Assembly (NCBI RefSeq): GCF_000384115.1
Contig: NZ_KB913029.1
Location: 3,943,057-4,007,056 of the forward strand
Direction: 5' to 3'
Source: Sporichthya polymorpha DSM 43042
GTDB lineage: Bacteria > Actinomycetota > Actinomycetes > Sporichthyales > Sporichthyaceae
Length of the DNA: 64,000 bases
How positions within the stretch are numbered: the stretch's first letter is position 1; every line of letters begins with the position of its first letter. Below the pieces are notes generated by a model. It searched no databases, was not told the origin of the DNA, and worked only from the letters and a program-made list of their open reading frames with translations. Positions 6,141 through 64,000 of the stretch are shown here, one piece after another. The position numbers were made by a program, and so were the translations under genes.

Positions 6141-6671
6141 TCAGTCCTCGTCGGGGTCCGCGTCGTGCCCGGCGTCGAGGTGCTTGACGGACTGGAAGCC
6201 GAGCTGGCCCATCGGGTGGCCGGCGGACGACGCTGCGACCGGTTCGAGCAGGTAGCCCATGTGGTCGCCGACCTCGAGGCGGTCGAGGATGCGCCCGACG
6301 AACCAGCGGGTCACCTCGTCGAGGATCGGGACGCCGAGCGGGCCGTCGTGCCAGGTCTCGGGCGCGAGCTTGTCGACCTCGTCGCCGGTGCGGGTGCCGA
6401 AGCGGATCGCGAGGTCGATCTGGCCCGGGTCGGGGAGGTGCACCCCAAGCGCCTCGGCCTGCTCGGCGACGTCGAAGGTGTGGTTGTTCTTCGACAGGAA
6501 GACGAAGTAGCGCGGCGGGTGGATCGCGCACTGCGTCGCAAACCCGAGCAGGCACCCGTTCCGCTCGCCGTCGCGGGAGACCGCGGTCACGAGGTGCATC
6601 GGCCAGTCCAGCTGGCCCATGACGGCGTGGAAGTCCTCGACGGCGCTCCCCGGGATCGCCTCGGTGCTCAC
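6141..6671 (-). CDS. flavin reductase-like domain protein
   Basis: 176-aa FMN-binding split-barrel protein of the flavin reductase-like family. Visible: DFHAVMGQLDWPMHLVTA, then RNGCLLGFATQCAIHPPRYFVFLSKNNHT (about 38-66), the S/N-type flavin-phosphate region, and HDGPLGVPILDEVTRWFVGRI near 110-130. Family members reduce flavin with NAD(P)H for a partner monooxygenase, or act as stand-alone oxidoreductases; no partner gene is adjacent. The GTG start at 6671 overlaps the corA stop (GTGA), so it is translationally coupled to corA. Confidence 0.8.
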   Translation of the reverse strand: MSTEAIPGSAVEDFHAVMGQLDWPMHLVTAVSRDGERNGCLLGFATQCAIHPPRYFVFLSKNNHTFDVAEQAEALGVHLPDPGQIDLAIRFGTRTGDEVDKLAPETWHDGPLGVPILDEVTRWFVGRILDRLEVGDHMGYLLEPVAASSAGHPMGQLGFQSVKHLDAGHDADPDED

Positions 6672-7723: not shown

Positions 7724-7753
7724 GGGACACCTCCAGATCTCCGGAAGGTCGTC

Positions 7754-7778
7754 CTACCCGCCCGGGGGCGATTCACCC
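7754..7778 (-). promoter_or_regulatory. candidate SigB/SigF-type promoter of corA
   Basis: On the minus strand GGGT (7778-7775), 15 nt, then GGGTAG (7759-7754), fitting the SigB/SigF-group pattern GnnT-N14-16-GGGTA. It would give a leader of about 20 nt containing the GGAGGT ribosome site. The weakest of the set because the -35 matches only the loose consensus. Confidence 0.35.
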
Positions 7779-7815
7779 AGGACTGAACTGGTGGTAACCG
7801 CGGTAGGTACCAGGC

Positions 7816-8286
7816 GTGTCGCCCACCAACAAGCTTGCCGAAGAGATCGCCGCCCTGGCCGAGGAGCACGGCCACACCGTCGCCACCGCCGAGTCCCTGA
7901 CCGGCGGTCAGCTGACGGTGCAGCTCGCCGCGGCCCCGAACGCCTCGAGCTGGTTCCGCGGTGGCGTCGTCGCCTACAGCTCCGAGGTGAAGCGGGACGT
8001 GCTCGACGTCCCGCTCGGGCCTGTCGTGAGCAAGCCCGCCGCGATGGCCATGGCCTCCGGCGCGTGCCGGGTGCTCGGCGCCCGGATCGGCGTCTCCACC
8101 ACCGGGGTCGGCGGCCCTGGCGAGGAGGAGGGACAGTCCCCGGGCACGGTGTGGATCGGCCTGGCGTGGGAGGGCATCCCGATCGAGGCCTGGGAGTACA
8201 AGTTCGGCGGCGACCCCGACGAGATCTGTCAGCAGGCCTGCGAGGCCGCGCTGCAGGCGGTCCGGGACCGGATGCACATCGGTTGA
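7816..8286 (+). CDS. CinA C-terminal-domain amidase (NMN amidohydrolase type)
   Basis: 156-aa stand-alone CinA C-terminal domain (PncC type), which deamidates nicotinamide mononucleotide to nicotinate mononucleotide in characterised members. Signature strings: TVATAESLTGGQL (about 22-34), VAYSSEVKRDVLDVP (about 53-67) and STTGVGGPGEEEGQSPGTV (about 95-113). Length is normal for a solo domain lacking the COG1058 half. Start GTG 7816, divergent from corA. A close second start is not apparent. It is followed directly by the promoter candidate of the decarboxylase gene. Confidence 0.9.
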   Translation: MSPTNKLAEEIAALAEEHGHTVATAESLTGGQLTVQLAAAPNASSWFRGGVVAYSSEVKRDVLDVPLGPVVSKPAAMAMASGACRVLGARIGVSTTGVGGPGEEEGQSPGTVWIGLAWEGIPIEAWEYKFGGDPDEICQQACEAALQAVRDRMHIG

Positions 8287-8305
8287 CCCGCGGGACCCCG
8301 GGTAT
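8281..8305 (+). promoter_or_regulatory. candidate SigB/SigF-type promoter of the decarboxylase gene
   Basis: GGTT (8281-8284), 15 nt, GGGTAT (8300-8305). The -10 ends ten bases before the ATG at 8315, so transcription would start at or next to the start codon and give a leaderless mRNA. Confidence 0.5.
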
Positions 8306-8314
8306 CCCGGACTG

Positions 8315-9772
8315 ATGGACCACTCACGCGCGCCCGTTCTGGAAGCACTCGAAGAGTTCCGCCGTCGCGGGGACACCGTCTTCGGCCCGCCCGGACACAA
8401 GCAGGGGGCCGGGGCCGACCAGCGGGTGGTCGAGATCGTCGGCGAGGGCGTGTTCGCCTCCGACGTCCTCTCGCTGAACGGCCTCGACGACCGGCGCGAG
8501 TCGCAGGGCGTCATCACCCAGGCCGAGGAGCTGATGGCCGACGCCGTGCACGCCGAGCACGCGTTCTTCTCGACCTGCGGCAGTTCGCTGTCGGTGAAGA
8601 CCGCGATCATCTCCGTGGCCGGGCCGGGGGAGAAGCTTCTCGTCGCCCGGAACACGCACAAGTCGATCGTCGGCGGCCTGATCGTCGCGGGCATCCAGCC
8701 CGTCTGGATCCCCGCCCGCTTCGACACCGAGCGCCACCTTGCCCACCCGCCCGGTCTGACCGAGGTGGAACAGGCGCTCGCCGAACACCCCGACGCCAAG
8801 GGCGTCCTGATGATCAGCCCCACCGACTGGGGCTCCTGCGCCGACCTCGCCGGAACGGCGAAGGCCGCCCACGCCTACGGCATGCCGTTACTCGTCGACG
8901 AGGCGTGGGGAGCGCACCTGCCGTTCCATGAGGAGGTCCCTTCGTGGGGTATGGACGCCGGGGCCGACCTCGTCGTCACCAGCGTCCACAAGATGGGCGC
9001 GGCCATCGAGCAGAGCTCGGTGTTCCACCTGCAGGGTGACCTGATCGACAAGAACGTCCTGACCCTGCGCGAGGACATGCTCGGCACGACCAGCTCGTCC
9101 GGGCTCGTCTACGCCACCCTCGACGGCTGGCGGCGGCAGATGGTCGAGCACGGGCGGGACCTCATCGGCGTTCTGCTCGAGCTGGCGCAGCACGCCCGCA
9201 CCGGGCTCGCGCAATTCGACGGCCTCGACGTGATGGGGCGTGAGGTCGTGCGCGACGACGGTGCCTTCGACCTCGACCCGCTGCGCCTGACCGTCGACGT
9301 GCGCGGGCTGGGGACCACCGGTTACGCGGCCGCGGAGTGGCTGCGGGCGCGGTGCCACGTCGACGTCGGGTCGTCGGACTCGTGTCGCGTCAACGTGCAG
9401 ATCGCCCTGGGTGACGACGAGCGCACCGTCGCGCGCCTGATCCACTCGTTCCAGGCGCTGGTCAAGCACCGCGACGAGCTCGACCCGCGACCGGAGATCC
9501 CGATGCCCGACCCCGCCGTCTTCGACCGGCAGCCGACGATGACGCCCCGCGAGGCGTTCTTCGCCCCGGCCGAGCAGGTCGCGGTCGAGGAAGCCGCGGG
9601 CCGGATCGTCGCCGAGATGGTCAGCCCGTACCCGCCCGGCGTCCCGGTGCTGGTGCCGGGCGAGCGCATCGAGGAGGAGGTCCTCGCCTACCTCCGCGCG
9701 GCCGTGGACGCCGGCGCGCTCGTCCCGGACACCGTCGACGGCTCCCTGCAGACCCTGCGCGTGGTCGCCTGA
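8315..9772 (+). CDS. Orn/Lys/Arg-type PLP-dependent decarboxylase
   Basis: 485-aa fold-type I decarboxylase of the ornithine/lysine/arginine family. The major PLP domain begins with RRGDTVFGPPGHKQGAG (about 14-30). It continues with FFSTCGSSLSVKTAI, the cofactor region LLVDEAWGAHLPFHEE and the Schiff-base Lys in SVHKMGAA near residue 226. A C-terminal domain carries YPPGVPVLVPGERI (about 437-450). The substrate (arginine, lysine or ornithine) cannot be decided from sequence alone. Decarboxylation would consume protons and yield a polyamine precursor. The gene appears monocistronic with a stress-type promoter. Confidence 0.9.
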   Translation: MDHSRAPVLEALEEFRRRGDTVFGPPGHKQGAGADQRVVEIVGEGVFASDVLSLNGLDDRRESQGVITQAEELMADAVHAEHAFFSTCGSSLSVKTAIISVAGPGEKLLVARNTHKSIVGGLIVAGIQPVWIPARFDTERHLAHPPGLTEVEQALAEHPDAKGVLMISPTDWGSCADLAGTAKAAHAYGMPLLVDEAWGAHLPFHEEVPSWGMDAGADLVVTSVHKMGAAIEQSSVFHLQGDLIDKNVLTLREDMLGTTSSSGLVYATLDGWRRQMVEHGRDLIGVLLELAQHARTGLAQFDGLDVMGREVVRDDGAFDLDPLRLTVDVRGLGTTGYAAAEWLRARCHVDVGSSDSCRVNVQIALGDDERTVARLIHSFQALVKHRDELDPRPEIPMPDPAVFDRQPTMTPREAFFAPAEQVAVEEAAGRIVAEMVSPYPPGVPVLVPGERIEEEVLAYLRAAVDAGALVPDTVDGSLQTLRVVA

Positions 9773-9807
9773 CGGTTGCGGGGCGGGGAGCGGGGCAGAT
9801 CGAGGGC

Positions 9808-10254
9808 ATGGCACGCACCTCCCGGACGATGAACGGCCTGAGCCCGGCCCAGGTCTTCCTCGCGTTTCGCGACGGCTACACCTACGACCGCTGGGTGGTG
9901 GGGACGCGGAACATCCGCTCCGCCGACCCCGGGTGGCCGGCGCCGGGCACGGAGATCCACTACACGATCGGCTACGCCCCGCTGCGCAAGGACGACAAGA
10001 CCGTCGCCTGCTCCTACGAGCCGGACGTCAAGCTCGAACTCGAGGCCCACGCCTGGCCGGCCGGGACGGCGCGGATCGCCTTCACCGTCGAGGAGGTCGA
10101 CGGCGGGTGCGTCGTGCACATCGACGAGCACCCCCTGCGCGGCATCGCCGCGACCCTCCACAACCCGGTGCTGGATCTCCTGATCAAGGTCCGCAACGTC
10201 GAGACCCTCCGCCGCCTCGAGCAGCGCATCCGCCAGATGGTCGTCCACCGCTAG
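9808..10254 (+). CDS. SRPBCC (START/Bet v1-like) superfamily protein
   Basis: 148-aa helix-grip protein of the SRPBCC/polyketide-cyclase-like superfamily: N-terminal strand ARTSRTMNGLSPAQVFLAFRDGYTYDRWVVGTR, a beta-rich middle, EVDGGCVVHIDEHPLRGI and a long C-terminal helix (DLLIKVRNVETLRRLEQRI). These proteins bind hydrophobic ligands in a cavity; the ligand is unknown. Start ATG 9808. It converges on the CrtI-like oxidoreductase gene with only 19 bp between their stops. Confidence 0.8.
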   Translation: MARTSRTMNGLSPAQVFLAFRDGYTYDRWVVGTRNIRSADPGWPAPGTEIHYTIGYAPLRKDDKTVACSYEPDVKLELEAHAWPAGTARIAFTVEEVDGGCVVHIDEHPLRGIAATLHNPVLDLLIKVRNVETLRRLEQRIRQMVVHR

Positions 10255-46781: not shown

Positions 46782-47672
46782 ATGGGCCGACTGCGACGGA
46801 ATCTTCTCGTCATCAGCTTGATCGCCGGCGTGCTATCCGTTCCGGAAGGCACCGCTCAGGCCGCGGCGCGGCAGAGTGATGACCAGGACGTCATCTCGGC
46901 GATCAACTCGGTGGTTGTCGGGGGCAAGGCCGCGATCAACACGCGAACCGGTCAAGGGCGAGAGCTCGGACCCTTGCGCACAGTGCGCAGCCTTGTCGAT
47001 GCGGCTACTGACGATGTACTGGGCCCGGGCACCCTGCGTCTGGACGCTTCTACCGAGGGCCCCGCGGATCTCCGGAGCTGCATCAAGAACGGGGACAACC
47101 GGAAGCTGCAGACCTACGACCACTTCGATCGGTATGCCAACACAAGACGCGGCAGCATCCACTTCCAGTACCACCCGTATCGCATTACCGCGGCTCGCGA
47201 GGTTGAGGGGGCGCCGACAACTCAGTGGGAGGTCTGCTCGGTCGGTGGTGGTCAGTTGGCCGACCACCGCCTGCGCCGCATGGGCACCGGGATCGCGCTT
47301 GCCGATTCCGAGAATTTCCGCCGGATTGGCTATTCCTGGCGCACAGGGTCCACGCCCGAGAACTACACCCTCGGCCTGGGTTTCCAGGTCAAGAAGGGAC
47401 CCGTCGGGATATCAGCGTCGCTGACGCAGAAGCCGGCGGACAAGCTGCTGGGCTCTCATCGCGGTCCGTGGAACACATTCATGGACACATACGACCGCAA
47501 TGCAGTCAACGCGTGGTGGCAGGACAACTGCATCGGTCGCTGGTACCGCTGCTGGCCGAAGAGCGGTAGCCACGATTTCCAGGGCGCCATCGCGCACGGT
47601 CTGTGGGAGTTCCCGGCCGGAACCGAGCCTTCGGACGTCGCCTTCTACTTTGTTCTCTACGCCGGGGTTTGA
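46782..47672 (+). CDS. secreted protein of unknown function
   Basis: 296-aa exported protein: signal peptide MGRLRRNLLVISLIAGVLS with cleavage likely after AQA near residue 26. The mature protein is rich in Tyr, Trp, Asn and Arg with several Cys (SCIKNG, VCSVGG, NCIGRWYRCW), suggesting a disulfide-stabilised beta fold. No family recognised. Its codon use is less GC-biased than its neighbours, hinting at acquisition by transfer. Followed 15 bases later by a lipoprotein gene on the same strand. Confidence 0.7.
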   Translation: MGRLRRNLLVISLIAGVLSVPEGTAQAAARQSDDQDVISAINSVVVGGKAAINTRTGQGRELGPLRTVRSLVDAATDDVLGPGTLRLDASTEGPADLRSCIKNGDNRKLQTYDHFDRYANTRRGSIHFQYHPYRITAAREVEGAPTTQWEVCSVGGGQLADHRLRRMGTGIALADSENFRRIGYSWRTGSTPENYTLGLGFQVKKGPVGISASLTQKPADKLLGSHRGPWNTFMDTYDRNAVNAWWQDNCIGRWYRCWPKSGSHDFQGAIAHGLWEFPAGTEPSDVAFYFVLYAGV

Positions 47673-47687
47673 GTGAAGGGAACCGGG

Positions 47688-48620
47688 ATGCGTCGCTGGC
47701 CGGTCGGCGCCGTGCTGGCGGTGCTCGCGCTCATCGTGGTCGGCGGCTGCGGGGATGAGGACTCGCCCTCGGACCGTGCGTCGGCGGCAGCACCGACGCT
47801 GCATAGCTTCGACCTCTACGTGGCAGCGAGTGCGGACGGGGACGTCCTGTCCGCGGATCTGTACGGGATCACCTTCGATCCGCTGACTGTCCATCGGATC
47901 ACGACGGACAAGCGGATCTCGAACCTCGCCGCGGACCGGTCGACCGTCGTGGTGGTGGCGGCCGACGAGCAGCTGGACAAACTCGCGCTCGTGACCGAAG
48001 GTGGCGAACTTGTTCCGCTGCCAGGAGTTGGCCGTCCGCACGGCTTCTCTCCGGAGGTGCGGCCGAACGGTCGGATCCGGTTTGAGGACGACGGGCCCGA
48101 CAACGACCGGAGGGTCCTTGGTCGGCTCCTGGAGTACGACCCGCAGACCGAGCGGACGCGGGTGCTGTTCTCCTCGCGCCGGGAGATCAATCTGGCGGGG
48201 ACGCTGTCGGATGGGTTTCTCGAACTCGTCCATCGGGACAACGCCGACGACCAGGTCGCGATCGTCGGCGACGGCGCGCGGCGGGTTTTCCGGATCGCGC
48301 CCCGTATCGGCGATGCTCTCGTCGGCACCGGCTACGTCGCTGCCCGCGTCTACCCGGTCGACGATCCGACCGCGGAGCCGACGGACACGAGTCTGCTGGA
48401 CACGACGACGGGGAAGGCTGTCGTGGTCCGCGGCTGGTCCCCGCTCGCGTGGAGCCCAGACCGCACCCGACTGCTGGTGAAGCGTCGGCCGGCGGCCGGA
48501 GAGATGGAGACGGAACTCGGTCTCCTCGATGCTCGTCGCCCGAAGGACGTAACGCAGGTCGGCGTGGTCCCGGCCCTGGTGCTGTACAGCGGCGCCTGGG
48601 TGAGCGGCGAGGCCCTCTGA
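47688..48620 (+). CDS. lipoprotein, possibly beta-propeller
   Basis: 310-aa exported lipoprotein. Signal peptide with lipobox VVGGC (Cys near residue 20), linker DEDSPSDRASAAAP, then repeated strands with Asp/Gly turns (DLYVAASADGDVLSADLYG, ISNLAADRSTVVVVAADEQ, SPLAWSPDRTRLLVKRRP) suggestive of a WD40/TolB-like propeller. Function unknown. ATG 47688 has AAGGGA upstream; an in-frame GTG at 47673 is an alternative. Probably co-transcribed with the secreted protein. Confidence 0.75.
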   Translation: MRRWPVGAVLAVLALIVVGGCGDEDSPSDRASAAAPTLHSFDLYVAASADGDVLSADLYGITFDPLTVHRITTDKRISNLAADRSTVVVVAADEQLDKLALVTEGGELVPLPGVGRPHGFSPEVRPNGRIRFEDDGPDNDRRVLGRLLEYDPQTERTRVLFSSRREINLAGTLSDGFLELVHRDNADDQVAIVGDGARRVFRIAPRIGDALVGTGYVAARVYPVDDPTAEPTDTSLLDTTTGKAVVVRGWSPLAWSPDRTRLLVKRRPAAGEMETELGLLDARRPKDVTQVGVVPALVLYSGAWVSGEAL

Positions 48621-50281: not shown

Positions 50282-51139
50282 ATGGACCGACCGGCGGGTG
50301 CGGACGGCTTCGCCGACCTGCTGCAGGAGCTGCGCGTCCGCTCAGGGCGCAGCTACGAGGACCTCGCCCGGGCGACGTTCACCAGCCGCTCCACCCTGCA
50401 CCGGTACTGCACGGGGGCGGGGCTGCCGGTCGACGACGACGTCGTGCTCCGCCTCGGGGAGGCCTGCGGCGCCGATGCCGGCGAGCTCGACGACCTCGTC
50501 CGGCGGTGGAAGACCGCCCTCGCGGACCGGGAATCGGGGGCGGTCCGCCCGGTCCCGGCGGACGTCGAGCCGGAGGAGCCGGCCGCGGCGCCGGTCGAGT
50601 CCGAGGGAGCGGAGGCGGACGGGCCCGCCCCGCGGCGCTCGCGGCGCCGGGCGGTGATGGCGGCGGCCGGGCTCGCGGTGGTGGTCCTCGCCGGGGCGGT
50701 GGTCGTCGCGGTCCGGGGCGGGGACGCGCCGGCGTCGGCGGGGCCGACCGGGGCGGCGGGGGAGGACGTGTGCGTGAACCGCTCCGACGTCCGCCGGGCC
50801 GACGGCCCGACCGGGGCGTTCGACGCCACCTGGACCGCCGATCAGCTCTGCCCGAACCAGCCCAACGTGCCGGTGTTCCTCACCCCGCTCGCCCGGGAGG
50901 ACGACCCGGGCGCCCAGGCCGGGACGCTGTACAGCACCGAGAGCTGGTTCGTCTGCTGGACCACCGGCCGCCTGCATTCCGGCGGGAATCGGATCTGGTA
51001 CTACACCCAGGGCGACGTCTCCCACCCCGACCACCGCGACCGCCGGGCGTGGGGCTTCGTCGCGGCTCACTACCTCGACACCGTCCTCGACCCAGACCCC
51101 GGGACACCCCAGTGCCCGGCGCTGCGGGGTCGTTCCTGA
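50282..51139 (+). CDS. membrane-anchored HTH protein with extracytoplasmic domain
   Basis: 285-aa single-pass protein. N-terminal XRE-like HTH: FADLLQELRVRSGRSYEDLARATFTSRSTLHRYCTGAGLP (split around 10-50) with DDVVLRLGEACGADAGELDDL, the form used by actinobacterial HTH proteins. A Pro/Glu linker (about 85-115), one membrane helix (AVMAAAGLAVVVLAGAVVVAV, about 124-144) and an outside domain with four Cys (EDVCVN, QLCPNQ, FVCWTT, PQCPAL) follow. The layout suggests an envelope sensor directly touching DNA; ligand and target unknown. ATG 50282 with a nearby GTG-rich leader. Confidence 0.75.
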   Translation: MDRPAGADGFADLLQELRVRSGRSYEDLARATFTSRSTLHRYCTGAGLPVDDDVVLRLGEACGADAGELDDLVRRWKTALADRESGAVRPVPADVEPEEPAAAPVESEGAEADGPAPRRSRRRAVMAAAGLAVVVLAGAVVVAVRGGDAPASAGPTGAAGEDVCVNRSDVRRADGPTGAFDATWTADQLCPNQPNVPVFLTPLAREDDPGAQAGTLYSTESWFVCWTTGRLHSGGNRIWYYTQGDVSHPDHRDRRAWGFVAAHYLDTVLDPDPGTPQCPALRGRS

Positions 51140-51350
51140 CCGATCGTCAGCCGGCCCGTTTAACCCAGGCCGCGCCGTAGATCGTGAAGCTCGGCAGGAC
51201 GCCGAGGGCTGGGGGCGGCTGAATTCCTGGGGTCGAGAAAGGGCGAGCTCGCTAGCTCGGGTATGCCGTGCGGCGGTCGAGGTCGCGCGCTCGCGTGTAC
51301 TGCCGAGCTTGGATGCGGGTCGCTGCCGTCAACGTCGAGCGGCGAGGTGT

Positions 51351-52283
51351 TTAGGACGCGATGGCTGGGTGGCGGAACACTTCACGCCGGTGCCAGGCGA
51401 GGTGATCCGCCGCGGGTAGGGGGCTGCCCGGTCGGGGCTGCAGGGCTCGCCCGTGCAGGTCGTAGAGGTGACGGCCGGCCTCGGTCCGGGCCGAGTAGTG
51501 CGTGGACACGACGATCGAAGCGCCCTCGTCCAGACCCAGCACGCCCCGGTCCAGCAGCTTGTGGTGAAGCGTGCACAGAGCGAGCCCATTGTCGAGCTCG
51601 TCTGGCCCGTCGTGCGTGAACCACCGGACGTGCGCGGCATCGATGCCCACCGCCTGTCCACCGAGTTGTCCGTCGAACCCACAGAAGGCGCACTGGCGGT
51701 CCCAGGCGGCCAGGACCGCCCTTGGCCAGTCTGAGGACCGGCGCCGTGCTTGATTCATGAGAGCAGGAGCAGATGTATCCGGATCGAATCCAACCGCGAT
51801 GAGGAGATCCGGCACGACGGTCGGGGGGAACTCGTCTTCCGCGAGCCGCCGCGCCAGACCGGCAATGTCGCCGGCGGTGATGATTGCGACTTCGAGCTCT
51901 GGGGTGAAGCGGCCGACCGGGTTCGAATCGCGGAGGGGAGTGACGTCGTCGTCTGGGACCGCTGCACTGAGGGTCCAGACACCATCGTTCCGGAGCCGGG
52001 TGAAGGGATACGCCGCGGACTTGACGGAAGCGGCCGTCGAAGGGGGACCAAACTCCGCTAGAAGTTGCGGCAGTTCCCTGGCCGCGTCAGACCAGACGAT
52101 TTGGCTGCTCCCGGTTCGCGCGAGCCGCCCAAGGGCGAGGAGCGTCAGTAGACGCTTGTGCGGAGACCTCGAACCGTCGGAGCGGCGGTTCTGGTTCAGC
52201 CGCATCAATCGTGCGATGGCGTCGGTTGGTGCGCTGCGCTGACGAGCGGGAGACTCCGCTCCGCGATCGTCATGTAACGACAT
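51351..52283 (-). CDS. HNH endonuclease, phosphorothioate-DNA-dependent restriction type
   Basis: 310-aa protein matching the SBD-HNH (ScoMcrA-like) restriction enzymes that cut phosphorothioated DNA. N-terminal part: HKRLLTLLALGRLARTGSSQIVW, LPQLLAEFGPP, YPFTRLRNDGVW and GRFTPELEVAI, the sulfur-binding-domain region. C-terminal HNH: CAFCGFDGQ, then DAAHVRWFTHDGPDELDNGLALCTLHH (split near 215-250) with zinc Cys pairs. No dnd modification genes are in the window, as expected for an enzyme that attacks incoming modified DNA. It borders the IS3 element. Confidence 0.85.
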   Translation of the reverse strand: MSLHDDRGAESPARQRSAPTDAIARLMRLNQNRRSDGSRSPHKRLLTLLALGRLARTGSSQIVWSDAARELPQLLAEFGPPSTAASVKSAAYPFTRLRNDGVWTLSAAVPDDDVTPLRDSNPVGRFTPELEVAIITAGDIAGLARRLAEDEFPPTVVPDLLIAVGFDPDTSAPALMNQARRRSSDWPRAVLAAWDRQCAFCGFDGQLGGQAVGIDAAHVRWFTHDGPDELDNGLALCTLHHKLLDRGVLGLDEGASIVVSTHYSARTEAGRHLYDLHGRALQPRPGSPLPAADHLAWHRREVFRHPAIAS

Positions 52284-52425
52284 GTTTCGAGCCTACGGCG
52301 GCTCGTACCTGTAGCAGTGGATTGCTTGGATGTTGCGAGAACGCCGGCAAGCGCAGGGAGTGCACGATTAAATGAATCGCCCTGGGTTCCTTGGAGGCTC
52401 CTGACCTTGGAACGAGGATGGGGCC

Positions 52426-52767
52426 ATGGAGAACAAGGGGGCGTCGGGTAAGCCGTCGCAGCGTCGCTACACCGAGGCTGAGAAGCAGGGCGCGGTGCGC
52501 TTGGTCCGCGCGCTTCGTAAGGAGCTCGGCGGCACGCAGGGGGCGATCTCGCGGGTTTCGGCCCAGCTCGGGTACGGCTCGGAGTCGGTGCGTAAGTGGG
52601 TCCACCAGGCTGACATCGATGAGGGCATCGAGCCCGGCCTGACCTCGGCGGAGTCGGCGCGGATCAAGGAGCTCGAGCAGGAGAACCGTGAGCTGCGCCG
52701 GGCCAATGACCTGTTGAAGCGGGCCTCGGCTTTTTTCGCGGCGGAGCTCGACCGCCCATCGAAGTGA
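52426..52767 (+). CDS. IS3-family transposase OrfA
   Basis: 113-aa DNA-binding subunit: an HTH_Tnp_1 domain (SQRRYTEAEKQGAVRLVRAL, GYGSESVRKWVHQAD) and a C-terminal leucine-zipper-like coiled coil (IKELEQENRELRRANDLLKRA). Its stop overlaps the orfB start (GTGA). In IS3 elements OrfA is also made as a fusion with OrfB by ribosomal frameshifting. Confidence 0.92.
   Translation: MENKGASGKPSQRRYTEAEKQGAVRLVRALRKELGGTQGAISRVSAQLGYGSESVRKWVHQADIDEGIEPGLTSAESARIKELEQENRELRRANDLLKRASAFFAAELDRPSK
52731..52737 (+). promoter_or_regulatory. putative programmed -1 frameshift site
   Basis: TTTTTTC in the orfA end. The orfB frame is open from here into orfB, so a -1 slip would give the OrfAB transposase typical of the IS3 family. 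Confidence 0.55.
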
Positions 52768-54131
52768 TCGTCGCGTTCATCGACGACAACCGTGCAGAGT
52801 TCGGAGTCGAGTTCATCTGCAAGCACATGCAGGTGGCTCCGAGCACGTACTACGCCGCGAAGAAGCGCCAGTCCCAACCGTGTGCGCGGGCGGTTCGCGA
52901 CGCGGTGATGATGCAGATCTTGCTCGCGTTGTGGATCGCCAATCGGAAGGTCTACGGGGCCCACAAGCTCTGGAAGGCCGCCCGCCGCGCCGGCCACGAC
53001 ATCGGCCGTGACCAGGTCGCCCGCCTCATGCGGGAACTCGGCATCGAGGGCGTTTCCCGGCTGCGCAAGAAGGTCTTCACCACCCGAGCGGACCCGGACG
53101 CCACCCGGGCTCCGGACCTGGTCAACCGGCACTTCAAGGCTGACCGTCCCGATGCCCTGTGGGTCACCGACCTCACTTACGTCCCGACCCGGTCGGGGAT
53201 GGCCTACGTGTGCTTCATCGTCGACGCGTTCAGCCGGCGCATCGTGGGCTGGCGGGTGGCGTCGAACATGAAGACCGAGATGGTCCTCGACGCTTTGGAG
53301 ATGGCCCGGGCCTCGCGCGGCGGGCACCGGCTCATCGGCCTGGTGACACATTCTGATGCAGGATCACAATTTACCTCGGTGCGCTTCACCGAGCGGCTGG
53401 ACGAGATCGGTGCCAGGCCCTCGATCGGGACCGTCGCCGACTCCTACGACAACGCTCTGGCCGAGACGACCAACGGGCTCTACAAGACCGAGTGCGTCTA
53501 CGGGCCTGATACCCGTGGTTGGGAGGACGTCGAGGACCTCGAACTGGCGACCCTGTCCTGGGTGCACTGGTTCAACGAACAGCGGCTGCACGGGCACTGC
53601 GGCGACCTTCCGCCGGCGGAGTACGAAGCAGCGTTCTACGCTGGCCAAGACTCCAACCCGGTCGGATTGGAATCCAATAAGAAGAGCCGCCATCAGACCC
53701 AGGGCGATTCACCGGTCGGTGGATCCGGGCTTAGGTCGCCGTGCAGCTGTCTCGCCTATTCATGTGGCACCAGCGCCAGCGCAACGAAGTCGTCGTCGCG
53801 CTTCGCGGCGATGCCGTGCCGGGCCAGGACGGCGAGCATGTCGGACTCGCGTGCCGGCGGGATCTGCAGGTACCAGCCGTTGAGCGTCGTGTCCTCGAGG
53901 GTGGCCCCGGCGTCGGTCCGGAGTGCGGCGATGATCGGACCCTTCGGATCGAACAGCTCCAGGGTGTTGGCGGTGGCCATCGGCGGCCAGTCCCCATCCG
54001 CGACGCCGGGTAAGTCAGTGGGGCTAAACGGATCGGTCATGTATTCGAAGTCCTCCGGCTCAAACCCGACGAAGTTGTGCTTCAACGAGGGCTGGAAAGC
54101 GAGGAATTCGTCCAGGGTCGTGCAGGCGTAG
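52764..54131 (+). CDS. IS3-family transposase OrfB, reading through the right IS end
   Basis: 455 codons. HTH_21 part (NRKVYGAHKLWKAARRAGHDIGRDQVARLMRELG, split) and an rve integrase core: DALWVTDLTYVPTRSG (first Asp), THSDAGSQFTS (second Asp), then AETTNGLYKTECVYG (Glu), the DDE triad intact. The recognisable protein ends at PAEYEAAFYAG near 53640. The frame then continues through the right inverted repeat (53697-53711) into flanking DNA up to 54131, giving about 150 unrelated extra residues. Overlaps the antisense gene at 53756-54241. Confidence 0.85.
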   Translation: MIVAFIDDNRAEFGVEFICKHMQVAPSTYYAAKKRQSQPCARAVRDAVMMQILLALWIANRKVYGAHKLWKAARRAGHDIGRDQVARLMRELGIEGVSRLRKKVFTTRADPDATRAPDLVNRHFKADRPDALWVTDLTYVPTRSGMAYVCFIVDAFSRRIVGWRVASNMKTEMVLDALEMARASRGGHRLIGLVTHSDAGSQFTSVRFTERLDEIGARPSIGTVADSYDNALAETTNGLYKTECVYGPDTRGWEDVEDLELATLSWVHWFNEQRLHGHCGDLPPAEYEAAFYAGQDSNPVGLESNKKSRHQTQGDSPVGGSGLRSPCSCLAYSCGTSASATKSSSRFAAMPCRARTASMSDSRAGGICRYQPLSVVSSRVAPASVRSAAMIGPFGSNSSRVLAVAIGGQSPSATPGKSVGLNGSVMYSKSSGSNPTKLCFNEGWKARNSSRVVQA

Positions 54132-54241
54132 ATCGCACGCCATTCGGCGGCGAGTTCGCGGGCCCGCTCGGCCTCGTACAAGGCAAAGCTGTCGTGGTAC
54201 TCGACGTAGCCGTAGACGACGACGAACGGGGCGGATGACAT
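53756..54241 (-). CDS. hypothetical protein beside the IS
   Basis: 161-aa soluble acidic protein: FVVVYGYVEYHDSFALYEAERARELAAEW, LDEFLAFQPSLKHNFVGFEPEDFEY, then DGDWPPMATANTLELFDPKG. Family not recognised. ATG 54241 begins the frame; its 3' end is only 45 bp from the IS right end. Its composition is more credible than the opposite-strand extension of orfB, so it is taken as the real gene. May belong to the defence-like island. Confidence 0.6.
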   Translation of the reverse strand: MSSAPFVVVYGYVEYHDSFALYEAERARELAAEWRAIYACTTLDEFLAFQPSLKHNFVGFEPEDFEYMTDPFSPTDLPGVADGDWPPMATANTLELFDPKGPIIAALRTDAGATLEDTTLNGWYLQIPPARESDMLAVLARHGIAAKRDDDFVALALVPHE

Positions 54242-54419
54242 GGGAGCAGCGTAGGGCTCGACACCGACACTTTCGTGGCTTGCGGGTGATCCATCGACGC
54301 CCCGTCGACCGTCGGGTCGAGCAGGCTAACGGTCACCAGCGCCGTGGTGTAGGAACGTCGACGTGAACGTGATTGCCCGGCGGTCGCCGGGATGGACCTG
54401 AGTCTTGGAGGCGATCGCG

Positions 54420-54545
54420 ATGGTGCTGTGCCTGCCCACGGAGCCGAAGGTCACGGCGCATGCGGGGAAGGCCGCCTTGCAAGCGCTCAAGACCCAGATG
54501 CGTCCGGATGACAGGCGGATCACCAACCTCCGCCATGAGCGGTGA
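54420..54545 (+). CDS. 41-codon ORF coupled to the helicase gene
   Basis: Starts MVLCLPTEPKVTAHAGKAAL and ends ITNLRHER. GGAGG lies eight bases before the ATG, and its stop overlaps the GTG of the large helicase gene (GTGA). It may be a small coupled protein or simply a leader that sets helicase translation. No family recognised. Confidence 0.4.
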   Translation: MVLCLPTEPKVTAHAGKAALQALKTQMRPDDRRITNLRHER

Positions 54546-57500
54546 CCTCTGTGGATGACCTCCCGGTCGGCCTGTACGAAGCCCTGGTCACCGAGCGGCT
54601 GGCCGCCCGCCTCCGCGACCTCGCCGATGACCTTGTACAGCAGACAGGGCCGCTGCTCGCTGCGGAGGCGCCGGACCGGCTTGCCTGGCATGTCGCCCGC
54701 GAAGTCGAGCGCGCGATCGCCCACGTGCCGGATACCGAGCGGGTCGGCACTGGCGTAGCGACCGTCCGAGCTCTGCTTCAGGAGTTAGCGGCCACGGCCG
54801 GGGCCGAGGCGGCCGACCTCCCGGTAGAGACCGGCGACGTCCTGCGGGCCATCCGGGCCCGCAACCTGGACGGGACCGCCAGAGAGGTCGCTTCCCCGCT
54901 GGTCCCGCTGCTCGACACCACCCTGCTCACCAACGCCCCCGGCGAACCCAACCTGTGGGCCCAGCTGATCTCCGAGGTCGACTCCGCCGCCGCCATTGAC
55001 GTCGTGATGGCCTTCATCCGGCGCAGCGGCATCGCGCCCCTGCTGGAGCCGCTGCGCCGGCACTGTGAGTCGGGGAAGCCGCTGCGGGTCCTGACCACCA
55101 CGTACACCGGCTCCACCGAGGCCGAGGCCCTGGACCTGCTGGCCGACCTCGGCGCGGATGTGCGCGTCTCCTACGACCTCACGACGACCCGGCTGCACGC
55201 CAAAGCGTGGATGTTTCACCGACCTGGTGGCTACTCCACCGGTTACATCGGGTCGTCGAACCTCACGCGGTCGGCCCAGGTCACCGGCCTGGAGTGGAAC
55301 GTGCGTCTCTCCGGTGCCCGCAACCCTGACGTAGTCGCGAAGTTCGCCGCGATGTTCGACGGTTACTGGAACAGCGGCGACTTTCTGCCCTACGACCCGG
55401 CCCAGTTCGACGATCAAATGGCCCACGCTCGCCGTGACGCCGGTCCGCACGTGTTCCTCAGCCCGGTGGAGATCACGCCGACCCCGTTTCAAGATCGGCT
55501 GCTGGAGCTGCTCGAACTGGCCCGAAGCCGCGGGCAGCACCGCAACCTACTGGTCGCGGCGACCGGGACCGGGAAGACTGTGATGGCGGCGCTGGACTAC
55601 GCCCGCCTGCGCGCGGTCTTGCCGCGAGCCAGGTTGCTCTTCGTCGCGCACCGGCAGGAGATCCTCGACCAGAGCATGGCGACCTTTCGGCATGCGCTGC
55701 GCGATGCCAGCTTCGGGGAGAAGTGGGTGGGCGGGTCACGGCCCGTCGCGTTCGAGCACGTGTTCGCCTCCATCCAGAGCCTCAACGCCGCGGACCTCGA
55801 GCGGCTGCCGACCGAGCACTTCGACGTCGTCATCGTCGACGAGATCCACCACGGCGCGGCCCCGTCCTACGCGCGCCTGCTCGACCGCATCCAGCCGGCC
55901 GAGCTGCTGGGTCTCACGGCAACGCCGGAGCGCAGTGACGGGCTTCCGATCCTGCACTGGTTCGGCGACCGCATCACCGCCGAACTGCGGCTCTGGGACG
56001 CCATCGACCAGCAGTACCTGGCGCCGTTTACCTACTTCGGCATCCACGATGGCGTTGACCTGCGGGATGTTCCCTGGAGGCGTGGGCGCGGTTACGACAC
56101 GCATGCCTTGAGTTCGATCTACACCTCGGCCGACTCCTGGGCGCGGTTGGTCATCAAACAGGTCATGGCCCACGCTGACGTGACCGCTATGCGATGTCTC
56201 GGCTTCTGCGTCGACATCGAGCACGCCCACTTCATGGCCCGACATTTCCGCGCCCACGACATCGACGCGGTGGCGATCGACGCGAGTACCCCACCCGCTG
56301 AGCGGCAGGCCGCCCTGCGTGATCTGGCCGACGGCCGGGTCCGTGCGGTGTTCTCCGTCGACCTGTTCAACGAGGGCGTGGACGTCCCGGTCGTCGACAC
56401 GGTGCTTATGCTGCGCCCGACCGAGAGCCCCACCCTGTTCCTGCAGCAGCTGGGGCGTGGTCTGCGCAAGGCCCCGAACAAGGCAGCGTGCACGGTGCTT
56501 GACTTCGTCGGCACGCATCGGCGCGAGTTCCGCTTTGATCGGCGCTTCCGGGCGCTGCTCGGTGGATCCCGCAAGGACGTCGAACGGGCCGTTCAGCAGG
56601 GGTTCCCCTACCTCCCGGCGGGTTGTCACATGCACCTGGATCGGGTTGCCACCGACGTCGTGCTGGCGAGTTTGCGGAATGCGTTGCCGTCGCGGTGGCC
56701 AGCGAAAGTCGAGGAGCTTCGCTCGCTGCGGGTCGAGCGACCGGATCTGGGTCTGGCCGGCTTTCTCGACGAGTCTGGGCTGGACCTCGACGACGTGTAT
56801 CAGGGCGGACGGGGTTGGTCTGACCTGCAAGCTGCCGCCGGAGTCGTCCTCGAACACGACGGTCCGCACGAGACTGCGTTGCGCCGGGCGATCGGGCGTC
56901 TCCTGCACGTTGACGATGCTGAGCGCCTTGATGCCTACCGGGAGCTGTTTGCTGACGCCGAGCCGCCCGACGTGAGCCAGCTGCCGGCGCGTCGGCGCCG
57001 GTTGTTGGCGATGGTGGTCGCCGTGGTGGGTGAGTCGGTTTTGGCCAAGGATGCGTCGCTGCAAGCCGGGGTCGACCTGCTGTGGCAACATCCGCAGGTT
57101 CGGGCTGAGGCGCGCGAGTTGTTGTCCGTGCTTGACCAGCGTGTGGATCACGTGTCGTTCCCAATTCCGAGCCATCCTGACGTCCCGTTGGAGATTCACG
57201 CGCGGTACAGCCGGATCGAAATTTTCGCGGCGACCGGGGTCAGCGAGTCGGCCAAGATGCCGCCGTGGCAGACCGGGGTCTACGACGCCAAAGACATCGC
57301 CGCCGACCTGCTCGCGATCACGATGGACAAGAGCGGCGAATCGTTTTCCCCGACCACCCGATACCGCGACTACGCGATCAGCCGGACCTTGCTGCACTGG
57401 GAGAGCCAATCGGTTACCCGTGCGGACAGCCCGACGGGCAGGCGCTACCAGCAGCACGCGGAGATGGGGCGCTCGATCTTCGTCTTCGCCCGGCTCAAGG

Positions 57501-57640
57501 AGACCGACCGGGCGTTCTGGTTTCTCGGACCCGCCACCTATCGCTCCCACGAGGGGGAGCGACCGATGGCCATCACATGGGAGCTGGAATACCCCCTGCC
57601 CGGTGACCTGTACGCGAGCTTCGCCTCGGCTGTGGCGTAG
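54542..57640 (+). CDS. PLD-nuclease / SF2 helicase / DUF3427 protein
   Basis: 1032-aa multidomain protein. Residues about 130-285: phospholipase-D-type nuclease domain with RLHAKAWMF near 217 and GSSNLTRSA near 238 (HKD-like H-x-K plus downstream N). About 310-680: superfamily 2 helicase with Walker A AATGTGKTVMAAL (about 339), VDEIHHGA Walker B (about 433), GLTATPERSDG (motif III) and QQLGRGLRKAPNK motif VI (about 633). About 885-1030: DUF3427 (PPWQTGVYDAKDIAADLL to FWFLGPATY). This architecture processes or degrades DNA and is common in accessory, defence-associated loci. GTG 54542 overlaps the 41-codon ORF. Confidence 0.9.
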   Translation: MTSVDDLPVGLYEALVTERLAARLRDLADDLVQQTGPLLAAEAPDRLAWHVAREVERAIAHVPDTERVGTGVATVRALLQELAATAGAEAADLPVETGDVLRAIRARNLDGTAREVASPLVPLLDTTLLTNAPGEPNLWAQLISEVDSAAAIDVVMAFIRRSGIAPLLEPLRRHCESGKPLRVLTTTYTGSTEAEALDLLADLGADVRVSYDLTTTRLHAKAWMFHRPGGYSTGYIGSSNLTRSAQVTGLEWNVRLSGARNPDVVAKFAAMFDGYWNSGDFLPYDPAQFDDQMAHARRDAGPHVFLSPVEITPTPFQDRLLELLELARSRGQHRNLLVAATGTGKTVMAALDYARLRAVLPRARLLFVAHRQEILDQSMATFRHALRDASFGEKWVGGSRPVAFEHVFASIQSLNAADLERLPTEHFDVVIVDEIHHGAAPSYARLLDRIQPAELLGLTATPERSDGLPILHWFGDRITAELRLWDAIDQQYLAPFTYFGIHDGVDLRDVPWRRGRGYDTHALSSIYTSADSWARLVIKQVMAHADVTAMRCLGFCVDIEHAHFMARHFRAHDIDAVAIDASTPPAERQAALRDLADGRVRAVFSVDLFNEGVDVPVVDTVLMLRPTESPTLFLQQLGRGLRKAPNKAACTVLDFVGTHRREFRFDRRFRALLGGSRKDVERAVQQGFPYLPAGCHMHLDRVATDVVLASLRNALPSRWPAKVEELRSLRVERPDLGLAGFLDESGLDLDDVYQGGRGWSDLQAAAGVVLEHDGPHETALRRAIGRLLHVDDAERLDAYRELFADAEPPDVSQLPARRRRLLAMVVAVVGESVLAKDASLQAGVDLLWQHPQVRAEARELLSVLDQRVDHVSFPIPSHPDVPLEIHARYSRIEIFAATGVSESAKMPPWQTGVYDAKDIAADLLAITMDKSGESFSPTTRYRDYAISRTLLHWESQSVTRADSPTGRRYQQHAEMGRSIFVFARLKETDRAFWFLGPATYRSHEGERPMAITWELEYPLPGDLYASFASAVA

Positions 57641-57677
57641 GTCGCGGCCGGCCGCGGCGCCAGGGCAGAGTGGGTAT

Positions 57678-57990
57678 ATGCACCTCGACGGCTGGCAGCT
57701 CGTGCTTAGCCCGACCGACGTCACCAAGCACCTCGCGTGCGCGCATCTCACGGCCCTGGATCTGGCCGCCGCTCGCAGGATCGTCGACGCCCCCGAAGCG
57801 GACGACGAGGCGCTGGAGCTGATCTTCCGCCTCGGCATGGAGCGCGAGGCCGACTACTCGCCGCGCTGCGGGCGCAGGGTCGGTAGGCCGGCGAGATCCC
57901 GGACGACCGCCGTTGTCTATCGGGTGGACGCTCCGAACCGCGCGCTCCCGCAGTTCAGCGGGTTAGTGCGTGCCACTGCTAACAACGGTG
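57678..57990 (+). pseudogene. remnant of a TM0106-family RecB-like nuclease
   Basis: From ATG 57678 about 60 residues (MHLDGWQLVLSPTDVTKHLA, then CAHLTALDLAAARRI, LIFRLGMEREADY) match the N-terminus of TM0106-type RecB-like nucleases. Near 57857 the frame shifts: the continuation (LAALRAQGR) is in another frame and meets TAG at 57884-57886, after which EIPDD is still recognisable. The remaining several hundred residues are missing. Inactive. Once probably in the helicase operon. Confidence 0.75.
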
Positions 57991-57999
57991 AACTCCACG

Positions 58000-58287
58000 T
58001 CTCTGACAAGACGGAGTCCACGGACACGCCGGGGCTGCAGCCAGTCTGGTCTGAGTGTTCGTCAGGTGGCGGCCGATGTATCCGATGTACACAGCGCCGG
58101 ACTTGGCCCAGTGGTCGAGGTAGTAGAGTCGCGGGGTGACCATCCCGTGCTTTCCTAGCTTAAAATGCGCCTGCATCTCGATCTTGCACGACGGGTCGAC
58201 AATCGCTGGGACGGGGAAGATCCGTTCGTCGCCATAGGCCGACATGGTGGTCGAGGACTCCAGAGGAGCGTGACGCTTCACGGTCAT
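58000..58287 (-). pseudogene. fragment of a conserved hypothetical protein
   Basis: About 75 residues from the start near 58287 (GDERIFPVPAIVDPSCKIEM, AHFKLGKHGMVTPRLYYLD, AVYIGYIGRHLTNTQT) look like the C-terminal part of a conserved actinobacterial protein that normally ends close to HLxNTQT. Here the frame runs on into unrelated sequence, and the usual N-terminal part is absent. Likely a truncated remnant joined to the nuclease remnant near 58050. Function of the intact family unknown. Confidence 0.5.
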
Positions 58288-58530
58288 CGGGCGGAAGCCC
58301 TCGCCCTGGCCCGCGCGGCCGACCCGATCGCGATCACTGAGTCGGTGATCGGGGCCTGGGCCCGGCTCGTCGCCGACTGCCGCCAGGGCGGGATCACCCG
58401 CACCGTGAAGCTGATCGACGCCCTCATCGCCGCTACCGCAATCGACCTCGGGTTACCCGTCGTCACCCAGGACGACGATTACGACCGGATGGCCGAGGCC
58501 CACCGCCCGCTCCGCGTGATCAAGGTCTGA
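58270..58530 (+). pseudogene. C-terminal fragment of a PIN-domain (VapC-like) toxin
   Basis: About 80 residues (ARAADPIAITESVIGAWARL, RTVKLIDALIAATAIDLGLPVVTQDDDY) correspond to the second half of a VapC PIN domain with its acidic residues (DALIAATA, TQDDDY). The first strand with the essential N-terminal Asp is missing, as are a start codon with ribosome site and an antitoxin gene. Overlaps the opposite-strand fragment. Judged inactive. Confidence 0.65.
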
Positions 58531-59383: not shown

Positions 59384-59416
59384 CTGCCGACCCACCGTGA
59401 CGTGATGGAGGATCAC

Positions 59417-60691
59417 ATGAAGCTCAACGCAATGCTCGACGTCGCGGTGGTCGCGCACGAGGCCGAGGACGAGGTCACCGTCCTCGTCGACCTCGAGGCG
59501 CCCGCGGCGCCGGTCGACACCACCCGCGCCCCGGCCTCGCTGCAGGTCGTCCTCGACCGCAGCGGCTCGATGGCGGGCCCGCCGCTGGAGGGGGCCAAGG
59601 CCGCGCTCGTGGCGCTGATCCGCCGCCTCGAACCGACCGACAACTTTGGGCTGGTCACCTTCGACGACTCCGCGCAGGTCGTCGTCGCCGCCGGCCCGCT
59701 GACGGACAAGGAGGGCGCGATCCGCGCCGTCGAGTCCGTCCACTCGGGCGGCACCACCGACCTGTCCGCCGGGTACCTGCGCGGCCTCCGCGAGCTCCGG
59801 CGGGTCGCCGCGAGCGGCACCGTGCTTGTCGTCTCCGACGGGCACGTCAACGCCGGGCTGAGCGACGTCGACGAGTTCGCCGCCGTCACCGCCAAGGCCT
59901 ACGCCGACGGCGTCGTCACCTCGACCCTCGGCTACGGGCGGGGCTACGACGAGACGCTGCTCGCGGCGATCGCCCGCGCGGGTAGCGGCAACCACGTCTT
60001 CGCCGACAACCCCGACGCCGCGGGTGCGGCGATCGCCGGCGAGGTCGACGGACTGCTCAACAAGGTCGTCCAGGCGGCGTCGCTGATCGTCACCGTGGAG
60101 GATCCGGTCGTCCTCGCCCACCTGTACAACGACTTGCCGACGCGTCAGATCTCGGCCAACCAGCTGATGATCGAGCTCGGCGACTTCTTCGGCGCCGAGG
60201 GCCGCCGCGTGCTGATGAAGTTCCGCGTCCCCGGGATGGCCGCGCTCGGCCCGGCCCGGATCGCGACCCTGGAGCTCGCGTACGTCGAGCTGCCCGGCCT
60301 GATCGAGCACGTCGTGACGCTGCCGATCAGCGTCAACGTCGTCCCGGGGGACGAGGCCGCCGGCCGGGTCCCGCACCCGACGGTCCGCTCCGAGGCGCTG
60401 TTCCAGGAGGCGCAGGAGAGCAAGCGCCGCGCCTCCGAGGCGCTCGAGCGCGGGGACGTCGGCGCCGGCGAGGCGCTGTTCGAGGAGGCCCGGGCCCGGC
60501 TCCACGAGGCGCTCCCGATCGCCCCCGCCGGCCTCGACCGGGACATCCGCGCCGAGCTCGACACCGTCGACGCGATGGGCGGGATGGTCCACGACCTCGG
60601 TTCCGCCTACGTCGCCAAGCTCAGCCGCGACTCCCACCACCAGATGAACCGCAAGCGTGGTCGGGCCCCGCGGATGGGGTCTTCCGAGTAG
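59417..60691 (+). CDS. von Willebrand factor type A domain protein
   Basis: 424-aa vWA protein, no signal peptide. The MIDAS metal site is complete: DRSGSMAG (about 47-54), the Thr in GGTTDLSAGY (about 112) and Asp in VVSDGHVNAG (about 140). C-terminal part from about 200 (VVQAASLIVTVEDPVVLAHL, LIEHVVTLPISVNVVPGDEA, then a long helix SKRRASEALERGDVGAGEAL) resembles bacterial vWA/VIT-like stress proteins. ATG 59417 is chosen over 59405 because GGAGG lies properly upstream of it. Probably a metal-dependent protein-interaction scaffold. Confidence 0.87.
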   Translation: MKLNAMLDVAVVAHEAEDEVTVLVDLEAPAAPVDTTRAPASLQVVLDRSGSMAGPPLEGAKAALVALIRRLEPTDNFGLVTFDDSAQVVVAAGPLTDKEGAIRAVESVHSGGTTDLSAGYLRGLRELRRVAASGTVLVVSDGHVNAGLSDVDEFAAVTAKAYADGVVTSTLGYGRGYDETLLAAIARAGSGNHVFADNPDAAGAAIAGEVDGLLNKVVQAASLIVTVEDPVVLAHLYNDLPTRQISANQLMIELGDFFGAEGRRVLMKFRVPGMAALGPARIATLELAYVELPGLIEHVVTLPISVNVVPGDEAAGRVPHPTVRSEALFQEAQESKRRASEALERGDVGAGEALFEEARARLHEALPIAPAGLDRDIRAELDTVDAMGGMVHDLGSAYVAKLSRDSHHQMNRKRGRAPRMGSSE

Positions 60692-60840: not shown

Positions 60841-61239
60841 CTAGGGCCCGAGGATTGCCGGCGTGATGTCGGTCTGGCGGAAGTCCTCGCCCTTGAACAG
60901 CAGCACGTCGCCCGTGGCGTGCGCGAGTGCGTAGGCGAAACAGTCGCCGAGGTTCAGACCGGCAGGGTGGCGACCCTTGCCGAATCGGCGCCAGGCGTCG
61001 ACGGCGAATCGAACGTCGTCAGGACCGACGGGCCGGACCCCGACCTCGGCCGTGTCGAGCAACAGGTGGAGGTCGCGTGCCGCTTCCGGGCCGTGGCGCG
61101 CTTCCACCACGATGCTCGCTTCGACCGCGTTGACGGCCGAGATCCACGATTCCGCACTCGTCTGGAGCGCCTGGACGTAGCGCTCGGCGTCGGCCTCGCC
61201 GAGGACGACGGCCACCAGCGCTGAGGTGTCGACGACCAC
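60841..61239 (-). CDS. vapC: VapC-type PIN-domain toxin
   Basis: 132-aa PIN ribonuclease toxin. Acidic catalytic residues are in place: MVVDTSALVAVVLGE (Asp4), NAVEASIVVEAR (Glu near 40), LNLGDCFAYALA (Asp near 99) and FKGEDFRQTDI (Asp near 118). It would cleave specific RNAs when freed from VapB. Encoded two bases downstream of its antitoxin gene in the usual order. Closest in pattern to the VapC30-like branch. Confidence 0.93.
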   Translation of the reverse strand: MVVDTSALVAVVLGEADAERYVQALQTSAESWISAVNAVEASIVVEARHGPEAARDLHLLLDTAEVGVRPVGPDDVRFAVDAWRRFGKGRHPAGLNLGDCFAYALAHATGDVLLFKGEDFRQTDITPAILGP

Positions 61240-61241
61240 GG

Positions 61242-61496
61242 TCAGGCCGGGATGCCGTCGGGTCCGTACCCGAGGATCTCGTCCTCGCCGCGGCTGTCGA
61301 CCACCGCACGTGCGCGTCCCCGGCGGATGATCTCGGTGAGGACGTCGGACGTCGTTGCGGCCGCGTTGCGCCGACGGACACGCGCCAGCCGCTCCTCCAC
61401 GGCCACCCGAATGGCGACCGTGATCGACTCTCCGGTCGCGGCGGCCAGTTCGCGGACGACGCGGTCGGTGCCGGCGTCCTTGATGTTCAACACCAT
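61242..61496 (-). CDS. vapB: VapB-type antitoxin
   Basis: 84-aa antitoxin of the Rv0623/PSK transcription-factor type: MVLNIKDAGTDRVVRELAAATGES (DNA-binding start), ITVAIRVAVEERLARVRRR, and a C-terminal toxin-binding tail ending LGYGPDGIPA. It neutralises the adjacent VapC and represses the operon. Upstream of the ATG an unusually A/T-rich, purine-rich stretch (about 61500-61545) probably contains promoter and operator. Confidence 0.9.
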   Translation of the reverse strand: MVLNIKDAGTDRVVRELAAATGESITVAIRVAVEERLARVRRRNAAATTSDVLTEIIRRGRARAVVDSRGEDEILGYGPDGIPA

Positions 61497-63339: not shown

Positions 63340-63633
63340 ATGGCACCCAAGACGAAGGTGACGCTGACGCTCGACTCGGAGCAGCTGGAGGAACTGCGCG
63401 CTCTGGTGGGAGCAAGGAGTCTGTCGGCCGCCGTGGATTCGGCCGTCGCCGCGTACCTGACGCGGGTCCGGCACCTCGCGGCCGTCGACGACTGGCTCGT
63501 CGAGCTCGAACGGGAGCACGGGCCCGTCCCGACCGAGACTCTCGCCTGGGCCGCGGACCTTGTCGAAGCATGGGACGCCTCGCGGGCGTCCGCGTCGAAG
63601 ACCGCCCCTCGCCGTCGCCGCCGGGCCGGGTGA
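63340..63633 (+). CDS. ribbon-helix-helix-type antitoxin
   Basis: 97-aa protein: KTKVTLTLDSEQLEELRALV with ARSLSAAVDSAVAAYLTRV is a short strand followed by two helices, the ribbon-helix-helix pattern of many antitoxins. The middle part (DDWLVELEREHGPVPTETLA) would contact the toxin, and the end is Arg-rich. Three bases separate it from the PIN-domain gene. Unrelated in sequence to the VapB at 61242. Confidence 0.8.
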   Translation: MAPKTKVTLTLDSEQLEELRALVGARSLSAAVDSAVAAYLTRVRHLAAVDDWLVELEREHGPVPTETLAWAADLVEAWDASRASASKTAPRRRRRAG

Positions 63634-63636
63634 GCG

Positions 63637-64000
63637 GTGCTCCTGCTGGACAGCGAGGCCCTCTCGTCCATCGCGAACGGCCCGGCCGACCGGCGCGACC
63701 GCGTTCGTGCGCTTGTTGGCGAGATGCGCCGCCGCGAACTTCCCGTTGCGACCGTCGCTGCGGTCCTCGCGGAGGTCGTGCGCGGACGTTCCCAAGACGC
63801 TGCCGTCTTCGCCGGTCTCCGCCGCGAACGCGTCGAGGTGCACGCGGTCGACAGCCGTGTCGCGGTTCGTGCGGGTCAATTGCTCGGGGCCTGCAGGGCG
63901 GACTCCACGCTGGCGATCGACGCGTTCCTCGTCGCGGTGGCCGACCTCTCCGCCGGCGCCATCATCGCGACGGGAGACCCGAAGGATCTGCGGCGCCTGG
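63637..64000 (+). CDS. PIN-domain toxin, cut by window end
   Basis: 121 residues visible from GTG 63637. PIN features: VLLLDSEALSSIAN (Asp5), VAAVLAEVVRG (Glu near 49), STLAIDAFLVAVAD (Asp near 92) and IIATGDPKDLRRL (Asp near 114). Nearly the whole domain is present; only the last strand may be missing. Forms a toxin-antitoxin pair with the preceding gene. Confidence 0.85.
   Translation, partial: MLLLDSEALSSIANGPADRRDRVRALVGEMRRRELPVATVAAVLAEVVRGRSQDAAVFAGLRRERVEVHAVDSRVAVRAGQLLGACRADSTLAIDAFLVAVADLSAGAIIATGDPKDLRRL

Follow-up and report, generated by a model that had tools for sequence, protein, structure and literature searches.

A probable worn defence island in Sporichthya polymorpha with two predicted stand-alone, modification-dependent restriction enzymes

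We examined a stretch of 64,000 nucleotides from Sporichthya polymorpha DSM 43042, whose genome is a single contig of 5.5 Mb; the stretch, referred to here as the window, covers positions 3943057-4007056, and all coordinates below are those of the window unless a contig is named. Toward its right end lies an island with a GC content of 0.66-0.68, set in flanks of 0.71-0.72. It carries two apparently intact genes, predicted to encode an SBD-HNH restriction endonuclease dependent on phosphorothioated DNA and a SauUSI-type type IV restriction enzyme, along with a 161-aa gene, an insertion sequence (IS) of the IS3 family, and pieces of other genes. An earlier note had listed a phosphorothioate-DNA-type HNH restriction enzyme, an unknown 161-aa protein, a coupled 41-codon open reading frame (ORF), a PLD-helicase-DUF3427 protein, and remnants of a RecB-like nuclease and a PIN toxin; each of these components is in place, and the 161-aa reading frame was confirmed. 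The ORF at 57979-58287 was missing from that list. The features are as follows, with junctions defined against a sister genome of the same genus (G001).

50282-51139: helix-turn-helix (HTH) domain gene of the left flank
51140-51350: left island junction; blastn similarity to G001 stops at 51154
51351-52283, minus strand: predicted SBD-HNH phosphorothioate-dependent restriction endonuclease, 310 aa, apparently intact (NF045808, HNH_2, sulfur-pocket residues)
52373-53711, plus strand: IS3-family element (orfA 52426-52767, orfB from 52764)
53756-54241, minus strand: 161-aa protein, function not assigned
54420-54545, plus strand: relic of a NERD-UvrD gene, first ~38 codons (the 41-codon ORF)
54542-57640, plus strand: predicted SauUSI-type type IV restriction enzyme, 1032 aa, apparently intact (PLD nuclease, SF2 ATPase, DUF3427)
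57678-~57875, plus strand: relic of a TM0106-family RecB-like nuclease gene, first ~65 codons
57979-58287, minus strand: ORF akin to hypothetical plasmid genes of actinobacteria; probable relic
58298: right island junction, where similarity to G001 resumes
58321-58530, plus strand: vapC relic, last 69 codons
58662-59342 and 59405-60691: two conserved genes of the right flank

The protein encoded at 54542-57640, whose start may instead be at 54551, contains the PLDc_2, ResIII, Helicase_C, and DUF3427 domains in that order, all over Pfam cut-offs, which bears out the domain reading of the earlier note. It matches the PADLOC model for methyl-directed type IV enzymes (mREase_IV) over residues 117-1028 with 828 bits, spanning nearly the whole model. 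The nearest solved structure by sequence is SauUSI of Staphylococcus aureus (PDB 7clg), a one-chain enzyme with a PLD nuclease, a superfamily 2 (SF2) ATPase, and a target domain of the SRA fold (PMC7913695; PMC3874153). Like SauUSI and its relatives, the window protein unites PLD, SF2 ATPase, and C-terminal DUF3427 in a single chain. The HxK and GSSN motifs of the PLD domain, together with Walker A, DEIH, TAT, and motif VI (QQLGRGLR) of the ATPase, are conserved across 63 aligned homologues. Unlike SauUSI, it has about 120 extra N-terminal residues, a feature common to its close homologues. The SauUSI type is defined by ATP-dependent cleavage of 5-methylcytosine (5mC)/5-hydroxymethylcytosine (5hmC) DNA only, and the window protein is assigned from sequence alone as a predicted complete SauUSI-type type IV restriction enzyme, a system of one polypeptide. 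Such an enzyme should bind modified DNA through its C-terminal, SRA-like DUF3427 domain, translocate by its ATPase, and cut by its PLD domain.

Homologues at about 60-71% identity are scattered among Acidimicrobiia, mycobacteria, planctomycetes, myxobacteria, and others. G001 also encodes a SauUSI-type protein, which is 48% identical to that of the window and clusters with copies from Nocardioides, Serinicoccus, and Brachybacterium. Because the two genes fall in different clades, the two species most likely gained them separately. The ATPase core also matches RadD (106.8 bits; PDB 6jde), which would suit a DNA-repair enzyme rather than a restriction enzyme. However, the cut-off of the RadD model is 720 bits and the match is confined to the ATPase, whereas the PLD nuclease, the DUF3427 domain, and the near full-length type IV match all fit restriction, as do the uneven distribution across distant phyla and the turnover at this site within the genus (see below). 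A repair role of the RadD kind is thus hardly credible.

The second apparently intact gene, at 51351-52283, encodes a protein matching NF045808, the family of restriction endonucleases that bind phosphorothioated DNA, over residues 26-304 with 227.4 bits (cut-off, 180); this agrees with the HNH assignment of the earlier note. Pfam places an HNH_2 domain in it, and the HK and YP residues of the sulfur pocket are present, as read in the sequence alone against PMC6224610 and PMC7461809. It thus resembles the SBD-HNH enzymes SprMcrA and EcoWI in its full-length family match over the cut-off, its HK and YP pocket, and its C-terminal HNH domain. It differs in that its nearest annotated plasmid relatives are ~33-35% identical. 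A phmmer search against the PDB gave no credible match, and no viral homologues were found with which to deepen the alignment. No match to dndC was found in the genome, where ssp genes were not searched; a genome free of dndC is expected, since enzymes of the SBD-HNH type seldom adjoin dnd genes (PMC7461809). We predict a stand-alone phosphorothioate-dependent enzyme, which should cut phosphorothioated DNA.

The genus could be sampled with three genomes, that of the window included. DNA of G001 matches the window up to 51154 (C32:22520 in G001) and again rightward from 58298 (C35:22499), at 93-97% identity by blastn; between these points the match is limited to part of the helicase gene, at 64%. 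The cargo that G001 carries between the same flanks, on C32:1-22500 and C35:1-22500, comprises a type IIG enzyme scoring 1479 bits, a DrmD/SNF2-type helicase, a gene pair resembling McrBC (identified by eye from its sequence), an MkoA-like helicase of the AAA_11/AAA_12 kind, a dCTPase-like protein, a match to the PADLOC candidate PDC-S29, two DruE-like helicases of 2134 and 1647 aa, UvrD-type proteins including one NERD-UvrD protein, and the SauUSI-type enzyme of the other clade. If the two contigs are neighbours, this island exceeds 40 kb. In the third genome of the genus the left-flank gene was unmatched and the site could not be read. A search of four other genomes of the order found neither the HNH gene nor the 161-aa gene nor the RecB piece. 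Because G001 holds different defence genes between the same flanks, and because those three features were not found in the other four genomes of the order, the comparison marks the interval as accessory and the site as a predicted defence hotspot. An explanation of the interval as conserved core genome is ruled out by G001. Two related species thus carry, between flanking genes that they share, sets of defence genes that are unrelated, and the SauUSI-type enzyme in each set belongs to a clade of its own.

The earlier note had called the interval an accessory, defence-like island and proposed comparing the site in relatives, with conservation as core genome counting against it. The lower GC content and the variable, clearly defence-type content between conserved flanks in this one sister genome uphold that description.

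Two further observations concern this site. In G001, genes for a UvrD protein and for a 1178-aa protein without assignment separate those of the two DruE-like helicases, and these four genes in a row could be an undescribed DruE-type system. Left of the island in the window, a pair of genes encoding 296 and 315 aa (46782-48620) has a diverged second copy beside the right flank in G001 (C35:20209-22053); the site may have expanded between two copies of this duplicated pair.

The earlier note had further suggested that the helicase, the coupled 41-codon ORF, and the former RecB-like neighbour formed a distinct DNA-degrading module, the nuclease having since been lost. The three pieces do lie in line on one strand, the 41-codon ORF overlaps the helicase start, and on one Rhodobacter plasmid about 10 kb separates a TM0106 gene from a DUF3427 helicase. 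The 41-codon ORF, however, gives an ungapped alignment with residues 1-38 of a G001 protein at 45% identity, a score reached by none of 5000 shuffles. In that protein, residues 14-124 form a NERD domain and UvrD-type helicase sequence comes after it; the homology of the ORF ends just ahead of the helicase start. The ORF is therefore the truncated beginning of a NERD-UvrD gene: it corresponds to the first 38 residues of the NERD-UvrD helicases of DISARM-like loci, and the remainder of the gene is gone. On three plasmids, relatives of this family are preceded by genes for a DUF1998 protein and a helicase, an arrangement like that of DISARM. Since the ORF is a cut-off gene beginning, its GTGA overlap with the helicase gene is most likely accidental, and a helicase start at 54551 would abolish it. 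Operon coupling of the ORF with the helicase was rejected on the same ground.

The nuclease piece at 57678-57875 matches the N-termini of five proteins encoded on plasmids; four carry the annotation TM0106 RecB-like nuclease, and the fifth is unannotated. The earlier identification of a RecB-like remnant therefore stands, with the first ~65 residues alike and the remaining ~1000 missing. We also surveyed the neighbours of helicase homologues by calling and clustering up to four genes per side at 80 homologous loci, of which 53 included 3 kb of upstream sequence and 53 included 3 kb of downstream sequence. No neighbour family occurred at more than four of the 80 loci, and the families that recurred look generic (transporter, dehydrogenase, P450, and MutT-like; named by eye). 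When full-length TM0106 nucleases were compared with the same loci, a single one of the 80 matched, at the locus edge and on the opposite strand, so the search for a conserved RecB-like partner that the earlier note had proposed yielded none, and helicase homologues occur in varied contexts apart from such nucleases, the very pattern it had named as counting against its module. SauUSI itself is single-chain (PMC7913695). A joint system of the three pieces is thus very improbable and already largely refuted; with no recurrent neighbour among the 80 loci, the helicase is predicted to stand alone and to need no partner subunit. Both the apparent coupled gene and the apparent nuclease partner are broken gene ends, and there is no new module to claim from this locus.

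Other parts of the island have decayed as well. The ORF at 57979-58287 on the minus strand has its matches among hypothetical genes that Streptomyces and other actinobacteria carry on plasmids. The PIN piece, rightly taken for a toxin remnant in the earlier note, corresponds to the C-terminal 69 aa of VapC and is 94% identical to a complete toxin in G001, where VapB lies in front of it (C35:22079-22731). At its right end the island therefore no longer has VapB or the first half of VapC. The IS3 element has the ends TGAATCGCC...GGCGATTCA, which are terminal inverted repeats, and shows no target-site duplication, the bases outside being AAA on one side and CCG on the other. A second copy elsewhere in the genome, 85% identical, has CTGG on both sides. 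Because the island copy lacks repeated flanking bases, unlike the second copy, the sequences to its left and right were probably joined by deletion or recombination. The description of the island as interrupted by IS3 holds insofar as the element lies inside it, but no reading frame is broken and the element sits between two genes. Its orfB (52764-54131) overruns the right end of the element without a stop of its own, again unlike the second copy, suggesting a small indel close to the 3′ end.

Collectively, the locus is best explained as a defence island, sited at a hotspot, that has largely worn away: two restriction enzymes, both modification-dependent, apparently intact, and independent of each other, survive among the debris of other genes. 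We put the probability of this reading at about 0.85. Each enzyme would most likely act on its own against modified DNA that arrives with phages or plasmids, and the NERD-UvrD start, the TM0106 RecB start, the plasmid-type gene, the VapC end, and the IS3 element would be what remains of a series of gains and deletions and of IS activity. The earlier note was thus right in seeing an accessory, defence-related locus and wrong in joining the helicase, the small ORF, and the RecB piece into a module. Both enzymes are new members of known families, and the parts of the island are ordinary.

Several points weigh against this reading. The glutamate of the SauUSI motif HxK(x)4E is a histidine here and in 54 of the 63 homologues, and the diverged target domain gives a weak alignment, of 15.8 bits, with its SauUSI counterpart; because of both, the modification recognised may differ from that of SauUSI. 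The single-sequence structure model of the HNH protein was unusable. The site is readable in one sister genome only, whose flanks lie on two contigs not proven to be continuous. The domain content, the intact motifs, the different cargo at this site in G001, the cut-off state of the relics, and the lack of a recurrent partner are observed, whereas the substrates, the expression, and the defence function of both enzymes are what we infer. The cluster could also be dead, both enzymes being silent or inactive and the cell unprotected: several genes are broken, and the IS3 element lies ~90 bp upstream of the HNH start, where the promoter of that gene would be. Yet both large ORFs are full length and keep their catalytic motifs although their neighbours decayed, and we consider a dead cluster improbable.

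The 161-aa protein (53756-54241) is the only component of the island left unexplained. Among 396 genomes of the phylum it has one relative, in G282, and the match is weak (E 2e-5, 35% identity over 80 aa), though none of 5000 shuffles reached its alignment score. No relatives were found in plasmids, phages, or viral contigs, and the predicted fold (predicted local distance difference test [pLDDT] score of 64) gave no PDB or viral match with E <0.2. The G282 relative is directly downstream of a NERD-UvrD gene, and in the window the 161-aa gene adjoins the NERD relic, from which it is divergent; this adjacency, in two cases only, hints at a functional link. On six plasmids with NERD-UvrD genes, no gene resembling that of the 161-aa protein stood out among the neighbours, which were judged by annotation and not by sequence. 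That the protein is a dedicated small partner of a NERD-UvrD defence helicase, an undescribed accessory subunit of a DISARM-like system outliving its helicase here, is a doubtful but conceivable explanation.

Two minor observations remain. In G282 (contig C3, positions 985-10246 of the locus extracted from it), the NERD-UvrD gene and the 161-aa relative are followed on the same strand by a 264-aa gene, a UvrD-type helicase gene, and a 1075-aa helicase-like gene, a run that may be one defence operon. Right of the island in the window, at 60841-61496 and 63340-64000, there are two more toxin-antitoxin-like pairs, each a small antitoxin-like gene with a PIN-like gene, as judged by eye.

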